NCBI RefSeq assembly: GCF_019670125.1
Contig: NZ_AP023033.1
Coordinates: 3,621,501 to 3,685,500, forward strand
Direction: 5' to 3'
Origin: Agarivorans aestuarii
GTDB lineage: Bacteria; Pseudomonadota; Gammaproteobacteria; Enterobacterales; Celerinatantimonadaceae
Length of the DNA stretch: 64,000 nt
Part shown: positions 50,242 through 52,912 of the stretch, piece after piece
Position numbering within the stretch: the stretch's first letter is position 1
Layout: the number at the start of each line of letters is the position of its first letter
Notes under the pieces: model-generated
What the model saw: only the letters and a program-made list of their open reading frames with translations
Database searches by the model: none
Told to the model about the DNA's origin: nothing
Translations under genes and position numbers: made by a program

Positions 50242-50255
50242 TGACCACGCGGTCA
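50242..50255. promoter_or_regulatory. RutR-type operator upstream of preT
   Basis: TGACCACGCGGTCA is a near-perfect palindrome (TGACC-N4-GGTCA, flanked by C and G that extend it to 16 bases). It fits the RutR consensus TTGACCA-N2-TGGTCAA and lies between preT and the rutR-like gene, so it may control both. Confidence 0.82.
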
Positions 50256-50458
50256 GAAGATTACTTTGAAATAATCAATATCATCATATCCATTTGTTTT
50301 TTATGGATAATTAAGCCACTTTCCAGCTAAAAATAACTTAGCACTATTACAACTGCTGCAATTACACGGTATGCTTTAGTTAGGCTACTTGCTCACTTTA
50401 AAGGCAAACAGCTACATAATAGTGCAATAAGTGCTCTTACATTGAGAAACCAATTAGT

Positions 50459-51109
50459 ATGAAAACTCCGCCGCCAGGCAAAGCAAAACGCCGTAAGCTC
50501 GCCGATATTCGCAAAGACAACTTGAAGCAAATTTTAGAGGTAGCAGAAAAGCTATTTGCTCAAAATGGCTATAGCGCTACTACCATTGCAGCCATCGCAG
50601 CCGAAGCTAACTTACCAAAAGCAAATGTGCTCTATTACTTCAAAACTAAAGAAGCCTTATATAAGGGTGTTTTAAGCCAACTATTGGTGGTTTGGATGAG
50701 CCACATGGATGAAATGACAGCCGATAACCACCCCAAGCTGGCGCTACGCCAATACATATTGCAAAAAATGACGCTATCTAAAGAGCACCCAAATGCCTCT
50801 CGAATATTTGCTGCCGAAATCCTACATGGTGCGCCTTACTTGCGTGAGCAATTAGCCACCGAGCTAAAACAACAGTTTGATAAAACCTGTCAGGTATTTA
50901 GGGAATGGATCGCCAAGCAATGGATGGATCCCATCAACCCAGAGCACCTGCTATTTATGATTTGGTCGTCTACTCAAGCTTACGCCGATTATGCAATGCA
51001 AAGCAGTATGATGATGGATAAAGAGAAGTTGGAAGAAAGCGACTACGAGGAAGGCGTTGAGTTTCTCACACGCATGGTACTTAAAGGTTGTGGCGTTAAA
51101 CTATTCTAA
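50459..51109 (+). CDS. rutR: TetR-family regulator, RutR type
   Basis: 216 aa. The HTH comprises AEKLFAQNGYSATTIAAIA and LPKANVLYYFKTKEALY. The C-terminal ligand domain contains ASRIFAAEILHGAPYL and INPEHLLFMIWSSTQAYADYA, matching E. coli RutR, which binds uracil and controls pyrimidine use. It sits among preTA, amidohydrolase and dihydropyrimidinase operons that each carry a RutR-type operator, making it the probable uracil- or thymine-responsive repressor. ATG start. Confidence 0.88.
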   Translation: MKTPPPGKAKRRKLADIRKDNLKQILEVAEKLFAQNGYSATTIAAIAAEANLPKANVLYYFKTKEALYKGVLSQLLVVWMSHMDEMTADNHPKLALRQYILQKMTLSKEHPNASRIFAAEILHGAPYLREQLATELKQQFDKTCQVFREWIAKQWMDPINPEHLLFMIWSSTQAYADYAMQSSMMMDKEKLEESDYEEGVEFLTRMVLKGCGVKLF

Positions 51110-51195
51110 TAAAACAATAGCTTAACACCACAAGAAACTAACAGAGCAAGCAATATTACTCAGTACTCTAGCTAGCCTTTTTCGTTAATTTAAGT

Positions 51196-52464
51196 TCAAG
51201 CTAAGTCACTTGCCAGCATCGTACTATCTTCACTAACTTGTTCAGCCATTGTTAGCATGGCATTTAATAATACCGAGCAGCCCGCTTCACATTCTTCTTG
51301 GGTTGTGCTCTCAATTTCGTTATGACTAATCCCATCTAGACAAGGGGTGAAAATCATTCCAGTAGGGGCAAAGTCGGAGACATAACAGGCGTCGTGTCCG
51401 GCACCGGCGATAATATCCATATGGCTGTACCCTAGTTTAGCCGTCGCGTTTCTTACTGCTTCGACACAAGCCTTGTCAAAGTGAATAGGCTCATAATACC
51501 AAAACGGATCCAGCTCAATTGCTACTTCAGTTTGCGCGGCTAACTCAGCAACAAAATCACTCAGCTCTTTATCCATAGCACTAAGCTCTTCATCCAAGGG
51601 ATGGCGTAAATCAATACTCATTTCAATTTTACCGGGAATGGTATTTCTAGAGTTGGGCCTAACATTAACAAAGCCTACAGTTCCACACCCCGGGGGGTGA
51701 GCTTTGGCAATGTCTTCTACCTTTTGAATGAGCTGAGTACTGGCCAACAGCGCATCTTTACGCAAGTGCATTGGAGTAGTACCAGCGTGTGACTCTCGAC
51801 CCGTTAACGTAGCATTAAACCAGCGCTGCCCCTGACCTCCGGTCACTACACCAATCTGTTTTTCTTCTGCCTCTAAGTAGGGACCTTGTTCAATATGCGT
51901 TTCGAAAAAGGCATGGAACTGTCTACCTGTTACTGGGACATCTCCGGCAAAGCCTATTCGCTGCAGCTCGTCACCTAAACGCAATCCATCAACATCACGA
52001 CTGTCCAATATCTCTTGCAGACTAAAGCGGCCAGACACCACCCCAGACCCCATCATTGCTGGTGCGAATCGCGAGCCTTCTTCATTAGTCCATACCGATA
52101 TTTCAATAGGATGTTTGGTTTTAATGCCAAGATCATTGAGTGAGCGCACCACTTCTAGGCCAGACAGAACCCCAAAAACACCATCAAATTTTCCGCCCGA
52201 AGGTTGGGTATCTAAGTGACTGCCTGTTCCAACAGGCGCTAAACTCATATCTTCACCGGGACGCACACAAAATATGTTGCCAACCTGATCAACACTTACC
52301 GTACACCCGGCTTCTTCAGCCCACTTAATGTAAAGCTCGCGACCTTGCTTATCGAGATCAGTTAAGGCTAAGCGCTTGCACCCCCCTTTGGCTGTGGCAC
52401 CTATTTTTGCCATTTCCATTAAACTGTCCCACAAGCGGTCACTATTAATTTTAAAGCTACTCAT
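51196..52464 (-). CDS. Beta-ureidopropionase-type M20 amidohydrolase
   Basis: 422 aa from the ATG at 52464, five bases after GGAGG; longer frames run into the operator and are unlikely. M20 dinuclear-zinc motifs: GSHLDTQPSGGKFDGVFG, WTNEEGSRF, FFETHIEQGPYLE, GRESHAGTTPM and GAGHDACYVS. The family includes N-carbamoyl-amino-acid hydrolases, allantoate amidohydrolases and N-carbamoyl-beta-alanine hydrolases. Next to preTA and dihydropyrimidinase it should cut N-carbamoyl-beta-alanine to beta-alanine, CO2 and ammonia. Confidence 0.9.
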   Translation of the reverse strand: MSSFKINSDRLWDSLMEMAKIGATAKGGCKRLALTDLDKQGRELYIKWAEEAGCTVSVDQVGNIFCVRPGEDMSLAPVGTGSHLDTQPSGGKFDGVFGVLSGLEVVRSLNDLGIKTKHPIEISVWTNEEGSRFAPAMMGSGVVSGRFSLQEILDSRDVDGLRLGDELQRIGFAGDVPVTGRQFHAFFETHIEQGPYLEAEEKQIGVVTGGQGQRWFNATLTGRESHAGTTPMHLRKDALLASTQLIQKVEDIAKAHPPGCGTVGFVNVRPNSRNTIPGKIEMSIDLRHPLDEELSAMDKELSDFVAELAAQTEVAIELDPFWYYEPIHFDKACVEAVRNATAKLGYSHMDIIAGAGHDACYVSDFAPTGMIFTPCLDGISHNEIESTTQEECEAGCSVLLNAMLTMAEQVSEDSTMLASDLA

Positions 52465-52550
52465 CATGGCCTCCAATAACCAAACTACGCCTAGTACTAA
52501 GCAGTAAAGTAACAAATCAGTTCTATACGAGATGGACACATGCAAACTAC

Positions 52551-52564
52551 TGACCACGCGGACA
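52551..52564. promoter_or_regulatory. RutR-type operator upstream of the amidohydrolase gene
   Basis: TGACCACGCGGACA matches the preT operator at 13 of 14 positions and lies 87 bases before the amidohydrolase start codon. Confidence 0.78.
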
Positions 52565-52912
52565 GGATATTAACCATAAACACATAAATCATTGATTTAT
52601 TTAAATATAAATAAACCACATACAAATAACATCAGTAAAAAAAGTTAATTCCCGAGTAAATCGCTCAGTTTTTATGCACTAATATTGGGCTTAACCGCCC
52701 AGCCTTGAGGCGTTAGCCTTCTTTACCAAGCTCTACAAACACTGCTACTTTAAGCACTCAAGCCAAGTAAGTACGCGGCTTACAGCATACCCGAACACAA
52801 CTTCTGTCCATATGGTCAGCAGATTGCATAAGTACAGATACCTCAAAAGAGATAGATGAACACCTCAAGCATGGTGTTGTCTTTAAGCAAGTCGAAATGG
52901 AGTTTGTGAGCC
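52565..52912. promoter_or_regulatory. Divergent control region, amidohydrolase / dihydropyrimidinase
   Basis: No gene in this 348-base stretch. It lies between two divergent pyrimidine-catabolic operons and carries one RutR-type operator (listed separately), with a second just outside its left edge. The AT-rich part at 52565-52660 probably holds the leftward promoter. Confidence 0.55.
52805..52818. promoter_or_regulatory. RutR-type operator upstream of dihydropyrimidinase
   Basis: TGTCCATATGGTCA keeps the TCCA-N2-TGG core and the right half TGGTCA; only one base departs from a perfect TGACCA-N2-TGGTCA palindrome. It lies 95 bases before the dihydropyrimidinase start codon. Confidence 0.8.

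Follow-up and report, generated by a model that had tools for sequence, protein, structure and literature searches.

The pyrimidine locus, its regulator and its operators

The DNA analysed here (the window) is a stretch of 64,000 bp from Agarivorans aestuarii (contig NZ_AP023033.1, positions 3,621,501 to 3,685,500), which carries genes of the reductive pathway of pyrimidine degradation, a gene for a RutR-like regulator and three RutR-type operators that appear to be joined to promoter elements of the sigma54 type. The genes of the locus, in window coordinates, are as follows.

47529–48803, minus strand: preA, NAD-dependent dihydropyrimidine dehydrogenase subunit (NF006183, 725 bits, cut-off 335)
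48808–50163, minus strand: preT, NAD-binding subunit of dihydropyrimidine dehydrogenase (PF14691 and PF07992; named from its domains and its place beside preA)
50459–51109, plus strand: RutR-like TetR-family regulator of 216 amino acids (PF08362; TIGR03613)
51196–52464, minus strand: amidohydrolase of the hydantoinase/carbamoylase family (TIGR01879, 426 bits, cut-off 204; NF006769, 648.5 bits, cut-off 452)
52913–54352, plus strand: dihydropyrimidinase (TIGR02033, 611 bits, cut-off 393)
54390–58132, plus strand: ATP-binding cassette (ABC) transporter, consisting of an ATPase, two permeases and an NMT1/THI5-like binding protein

The amidohydrolase probably catalyses the beta-ureidopropionase step. 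The ABC transporter is presumed to belong to the dihydropyrimidinase operon and to serve in pyrimidine uptake; this linkage recurs in 13 loci (L072-L084) and in the majority of those named loci that have a full gene set.

Homologues of the regulator with E values of 1e-25 or better were found in 91 of the 295 genomes of the order. Those with at least 58% identity were taken as a close group, comprising 13 loci plus 24 named loci on partly overlapping contigs, from Psychromonas, Alginatibacterium, Reinekea, Nitrincola, Pokkaliibacter and an uncultured contig labelled as Vibrio. Gene content and order are equal across this group, except for second copies in Psychromonas (7 of the 24) and the short contig L146. 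In Reinekea marinisedimentorum the gap between the regulator and amidohydrolase genes is wider, and the locus ends inside the transporter; in Pokkaliibacter no amidohydrolase gene was detected at the locus, and an operator is nonetheless present. The compact regulon for the reductive pathway that the preliminary description had recognised, with operators around a RutR-like gene, is borne out by a gene order common to Psychromonas, Alginatibacterium, Nitrincola and Reinekea.

The regulator exceeds the gathering scores of TetR_N (PF00440, 55.4 bits, cut-off 24) and TetR_C_3 (PF08362, 164.7 bits, cut-off 25), and its best match among solved structures is RutR (E value 3.6e-40). The residues described as contacting uracil in RutR (W77, Y97, W167, Q171 and Q179) and the DNA-contacting lysine K52, taken from the accessible part of PMC10891134, are all present in the window protein, the uracil contacts at positions shifted by +2, and in 10 aligned relatives. 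These contacts do not prove the ligand, since 3 of the 10 relatives come from purine-type or other loci, where they are second copies.

The three operators lie in front of preT, the amidohydrolase gene and the dihydropyrimidinase gene.

50242–50255, minus strand: operator of preT (forward letters TGACCACGCGGTCA, sense TGACCGCGTGGTCA), a perfect palindrome kept in relatives
52551–52564, minus strand: operator of the amidohydrolase gene (forward letters TGACCACGCGGACA, sense TGTCCGCGTGGTCA)
52805–52818, plus strand: operator of the dihydropyrimidinase gene (TGTCCATATGGTCA)

The operator pattern TGWCCNNNNGGWCA (TGWCCN4GGWCA) occurs at only six places in the 4,687,452-bp genome, compared with 14 for the reversed control pattern, and three of the six are the window sites; the abundance of comparable matches scattered at random, which the preliminary description named as a refuting outcome, was therefore not seen. 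The fourth match precedes a gene for a xanthine permease (TIGR03173, 454.9 bits, cut-off 414.15) by 42 bp, the fifth lies (C1:1270902-1270915) within the 87-bp gap separating two divergent genes with phosphoribosyltransferase domains, and the sixth within a peptide-type permease gene. Five of the six are thus intergenic and stand beside pyrimidine, xanthine-permease or phosphoribosyltransferase genes. The operator between the phosphoribosyltransferase genes (L069) is perfect and, by eye, lacks a sigma54-like element. A candidate fourth operator in the window at 54965 (TGACCACATGAACA, one mismatch, within the ABC ATPase gene) is likely to be a chance occurrence. In the amidohydrolase and dihydropyrimidinase operators the gene-distal half-site is TGTCC and the gene-proximal one GGTCA. 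The third base of the operator is T in 13 of 14 and 14 of 14 lineages, respectively, versus A in 14 of 14 for preT.

The operators were confirmed at 79, 87 and 95 bp from the ATG codons of preT (50163), the amidohydrolase (52464) and the dihydropyrimidinase (52913), the second distance becoming 84 bp if the ATG at 52467 is taken as the start. The impression that these distances match did not survive comparison with 21 loci from the own genus and six named groups, the starts of which were extrapolated from tblastn. The distance ranges from 60 to 101 bp for the amidohydrolase (20 loci), from 76 to 185 bp for dihydropyrimidinase (20 loci) and from 61 to 140 bp for preT (21 loci less one, in which the script took another palindrome); it is hence not a conserved spacing.

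Sigma54-type promoter elements at the operators

Promoters recognised by sigma54 have the consensus TGGCACG-N4-TTGCA, with a GG-N10-GC geometry, and their control is usually described as acting via a distant activator. Candidate -24/-12 elements of this type are found at all three operators.

50222–50236, minus strand: sigma54-type element of preT, TGGCATG-AGCT-TTGC, beginning 5 bp past the operator
50233–50247, minus strand: overlapping alternative GG-N10-GC of preT, which uses the TGG of the operator (TGGTCAGGAGGTGGC)
52542–52556, minus strand: sigma54-type element of the amidohydrolase gene, TGGTCAG-TAGT-TTGC, overlapping the operator
52813–52827, plus strand: sigma54-type element of the dihydropyrimidinase gene, TGGTCAG-CAGA-TTGC, overlapping the operator

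Read on the sense strand, the right half-site of the amidohydrolase and dihydropyrimidinase operators runs on as TGGTCA-N5-TTGCAT, so that the GG of the operator is also the GG of the -24 element. In preT of the relatives a TGG-type -24 element begins 5-6 bp past the operator; the alternative at offset 0, found in 10 of 21 preT rows, is probably secondary. The GG-N10-GC motif lies at offset 0 in 20/20 amidohydrolase and 16/20 dihydropyrimidinase promoters and at offset 11-12 in 20/21 preT promoters, the single remaining preT row being the one with the other palindrome. Overall, 56 of the 61 promoter rows have it at offset 0 or 11-12, four at offset 19, and one lacks it. When one row per lineage is counted, TTGC stands at +5 in 14/14 amidohydrolase and 12/14 dihydropyrimidinase promoters, and in the other two lineages a sigma54-like motif stands 19 bp further on. 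As judged from these alignments, the conserved spacing is that from the operator to a sigma54-type -12 element, which the preliminary description had overlooked.

The pattern TGGTCAGNNNNTKGCA has exactly three perfect matches in the genome, the window promoters from which it was itself drawn. The preT version of Nitrincola lacisaponensis, TGGCACGGAGTCTGCA, scores 11 of 12 against the sigma54 consensus, and rpoN is encoded in the genome (520.9 bits, over the cut-off). A composite of operator and -12 element, TGWCCN4GGTCAN5TTGCA, was found at 27 places in 17 of the 295 genomes of the order, compared with 4 for the reversed control.

It was considered whether the operators merely accompany ordinary sigma70 promoters, as the preliminary description had pictured, with TTGCAT being incidental. 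The operators and the regulator would be genuine in that case too, and E. coli RutR has targets beyond rutA, namely rutR and carAB, according to the accessible part of PMC10891134. However, no sigma70-like promoter was found in either intergenic region, a weak argument, as shuffled sequences give only about one each; the downstream alignment has no conserved -10 block by eye; and at the amidohydrolase gene the +5 TTGC never changes, in contrast to the drifting bases on either side of it. This explanation is accordingly regarded as unlikely. The variant in which TTGCAT itself serves as a -35 box was also rejected, with no conserved -10 element visible and no hit in the scan.

It is more doubtful still that TTGCAT is an extended part of the operator, or the site of a third protein, rather than a -12 element. 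The palindrome does reach further, since the TT of TTGC is matched by an AA to the left of the operator, and that TT may be part of the operator, but the GC(AT) is one-sided. The four dihydropyrimidinase promoters out of 20 that deviate, all from Psychromonas, lack the +5 TTGC and carry instead TTGGCTTGTWAATTGC at offset 19, with the operator kept apart from one mismatch; in the Psychromonas row RZ5 the motif stays at offset 0. Loss of TTGC together with a sigma54-like motif 19 bp lower suggests an exchange of promoter position rather than a shared part of the operator, and this exchange is the best sequence argument for the +5 TTGC as a -12 element.

NtrC-like sites and predicted double control

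Two pairs of NtrC-like sites lie upstream of the three promoters.

50390–50406, minus strand: NtrC-like site P2 (TGCCTTTAAAGTGAGCA)
50410–50426, minus strand: NtrC-like site P1 (TGCACTATTATGTAGCT), 20 bp from P2
52675–52691, plus strand: NtrC-like site D1 (TGCACTAATATTGGGCT)
52696–52712, plus strand: NtrC-like site D2 (CGCCCAGCCTTGAGGCG), 21 bp from D1

The P1/P2 pair (z = 2.85, p = 0.02 against shuffles) is situated 33-69 bp upstream of the regulator ATG, and near the regulator start in relatives as well; NtrC bound there might, in addition, reduce synthesis of the repressor. The D1/D2 pair (p = 0.06) is midway between the divergent amidohydrolase and dihydropyrimidinase promoters. The gaps of the relatives were scanned with a consensus for two NtrC-like sites, with the spacing fixed by the search at 19-22 bp and the position left free. 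The mean z was 3.06 for the amidohydrolase-dihydropyrimidinase gaps (n = 17, 12 with p<0.05) and 2.83 for the regulator-preT gaps (n = 18, 13 with p<0.05), whereas 12 random segments of the window averaged -0.14 and E. coli rut, as a control, gave 5.30. In most relatives the best pair has a nearly constant place; neither gap of Reinekea blandensis passes (0.33 and 0.09). Unlike the pair scan, a scan for single NtrC sites was not convincing, with just 6 of 35 rows at p<0.05. In the window alone the NtrC-like pattern gave 9 matches versus 9.08 expected. The genome encodes ntrC (766.8 bits, over the cut-off), and for comparison a gene near it, glnA by eye, has TGGCATAGTTTTAGCT and GGCACCAACTAAGTGCA upstream.

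We consider it quite probable, as the best explanation of the arrangement, that a RutR-type repressor released by pyrimidine blocks the -24 element of promoters driven by NtrC and sigma54. On this view the adjacent RutR-like repressor would bind the three sites as its operators, and each operator would form part of a promoter that depends on sigma54 and is activated by NtrC. The right half-site TGGTCA would provide the -24 GG, and TTGCAT the -12 element, of the amidohydrolase and dihydropyrimidinase promoters, and at preT the operator would end 5 bp before the -24 element. From this layout we infer that, when pyrimidine is absent, sigma54-RNA polymerase is excluded because the -24 element is covered or crowded by a dimer of the repressor, and that uracil or thymine releases the repressor. 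The closed sigma54 complex would fire only when remodelled by phosphorylated NtrC. NtrC is predicted to bind at the two pairs, one between the divergent promoters and the other upstream of preT, with about two helical turns separating the members of a pair. The regulon is thus most likely under double control, by nitrogen limitation and pyrimidine, and the enzymes of reductive degradation and the uptake system would be produced when a shortage of nitrogen coincides with the presence of pyrimidine. A list of operators thereby becomes a two-signal switch open to testing: in several promoters and several genera, a repressor that is released by its ligand appears to be a competitor for the very bases of the -24 element.

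Several observations weigh against this interpretation. The regulator scores below both RutR models (NCBIfam TIGR03613, 181.2 of 368 bits; PRK15008, 159.4 of 230 bits) and shares 37% identity with RutR of E. coli, so the name RutR needs care; the preliminary assignment as RutR-type holds for the family and the contact residues, and these scores place the protein among the relatives in the RutR family but outside the curated RutR equivalog. Among the -24 boxes, TGGCAT of preT is close to the canonical TGGCAC, and TGGTCA of the other two departs from it. The sigma54 score alone is not specific, because scores of at least 9 of 12 occur 22 times in the 64-kb window, the three promoters included. 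The best sigma54 motif of preT does not overlap the operator, and one occlusion mechanism may therefore not fit all three promoters. The NtrC-like pairs of the window are individually weak (p = 0.06 and 0.02), 5 of 17 and 5 of 18 gaps miss p = 0.05, and 1 of 12 random segments reaches it. The relatives are not independent lines, and in 369 genomes of the class the composite was found at 2 places outside the own genome versus 2 for the control, that is, with no excess.

Known systems and breadth of the arrangement

The rut operon of E. coli resembles the window locus in having a RutR-family repressor whose uracil contacts are common to the window regulator, the same type of palindrome, an NtrC-like pair 21 bp apart and a sigma54-type promoter (TGGCATCCGCTTTGCA); rutA is included in a list of RpoN targets obtained by systematic evolution of ligands by exponential enrichment (PMC8743547, accessible part). 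In contrast, the E. coli genes encode the oxidative Rut pathway, not the reductive pathway found here. The order in E. coli is the NtrC-like pair, a RutR box (TTGACCGTTTAGTCCA, picked by likeness), 64 bp and then TGGCATCCGCTTTGCA, whereas in the window the box overlaps or abuts the -24 element.

The E. coli rut box, between the NtrC-like pair and the promoter and 64 bp upstream of the -24 TGG, indicates that occlusion is not the sole geometry. It could be taken, along with the accessible description of RutR as an activator at carAB (PMC10891134), to mean that the regulator activates, or blocks NtrC looping rather than covering -24; the shared -24 GG would be hard to reconcile with activation, and this explanation appears very improbable.

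The RegPrecise account of RutR regulons in Proteobacteria (PMC5343134) reports predicted control of pyrimidine catabolism in 68 genomes of 13 taxa, with taxon-specific changes of the motif; its accessible text makes no mention of a sigma54 phase or of NtrC pairs, and its tables may list the window sites. The NtrC regulon table of Burkholderia cenocepacia H111 (PMC5491218) includes dihydropyrimidine dehydrogenase (-5.1), dihydropyrimidinase (-3.7) and a pyrimidine permease (-3.8), negative values which we read as lower expression without NtrC; the accessible part of this account gives no RutR-type operator or promoter layout. In a literature search judged from titles and abstract openings, with subscription journals mostly outside its reach, no account of a RutR-operator/sigma54 layout was found. 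The scheme of RutR and NtrC is already known, and the overlap or abutment of the operator with the -24 element is a variant of it.

Twenty of the 27 composite places are at the pyrimidine locus. Three are at second-copy loci of Psychromonas, where they precede a gene for a Bmp-type binding protein (PF02608 was run on one), two precede an adenosine deaminase-like gene (PF00962 was run on one), and two are unassigned. It is conceivable, and proposed here only tentatively, that this is a reusable module, in which the repressor half-site provides the sigma54 -24 bases and repressor release and polymerase loading become one competition. It might serve several RutR-family regulators per genome, one for pyrimidine and a 37%-identical paralogue for purine transport and 8-oxoguanine deaminase; with the preT NtrC-like pair just upstream of the repressor gene, nitrogen stress could lower the repressor.

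In a wider comparison of 28 loci picked by the author, 18 had no sigma54-like motif after the operator. In Pseudoalteromonas (L207, L221-L223) and Thalassotalea (L202), which have more distant regulators, the operator is followed by a sigma54-like motif at offset 18-19, and the downstream genes are one family by eye, an amidase (Pfam on L207 only). Because of these offsets, the position of the operator relative to the -24 element varies between groups, being fixed within the close group. A natural series of positions thus exists, on the -24 element, 5-6 bp above it, at offset 18-19 (Pseudoalteromonas and Thalassotalea) and 64 bp above it (E. coli), which can be used to probe how position sets the logic of sigma54 promoters.

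A second RutR-like regulator is encoded in the own genome near purine genes (C1:1806801-1807430); it is 37% identical and has E in place of Q179. Imperfect operators with one or two mismatches and the same GG-N10-GC phase, at C1:1788802, 1806570 and 1807441 (L068, L067), precede genes for a Bmp-type binding protein, an ABC ATPase and an 8-oxoguanine deaminase (641 bits, cut-off 532). The ABC ATPase and 8-oxoguanine deaminase sites are both present in 5 of 7 other genomes of the own family, one is present in the sixth and neither in the seventh. The second regulator copies of Psychromonas (L085-L091) are 60-65% identical; 4 of the 7 loci have an operator followed by TTGCA or TTGCT at +5, 2 have an operator alone and 1 has none, and some of these copies lie beside genes for xanthine-dehydrogenase-like proteins (by eye) and Bmp transporters.

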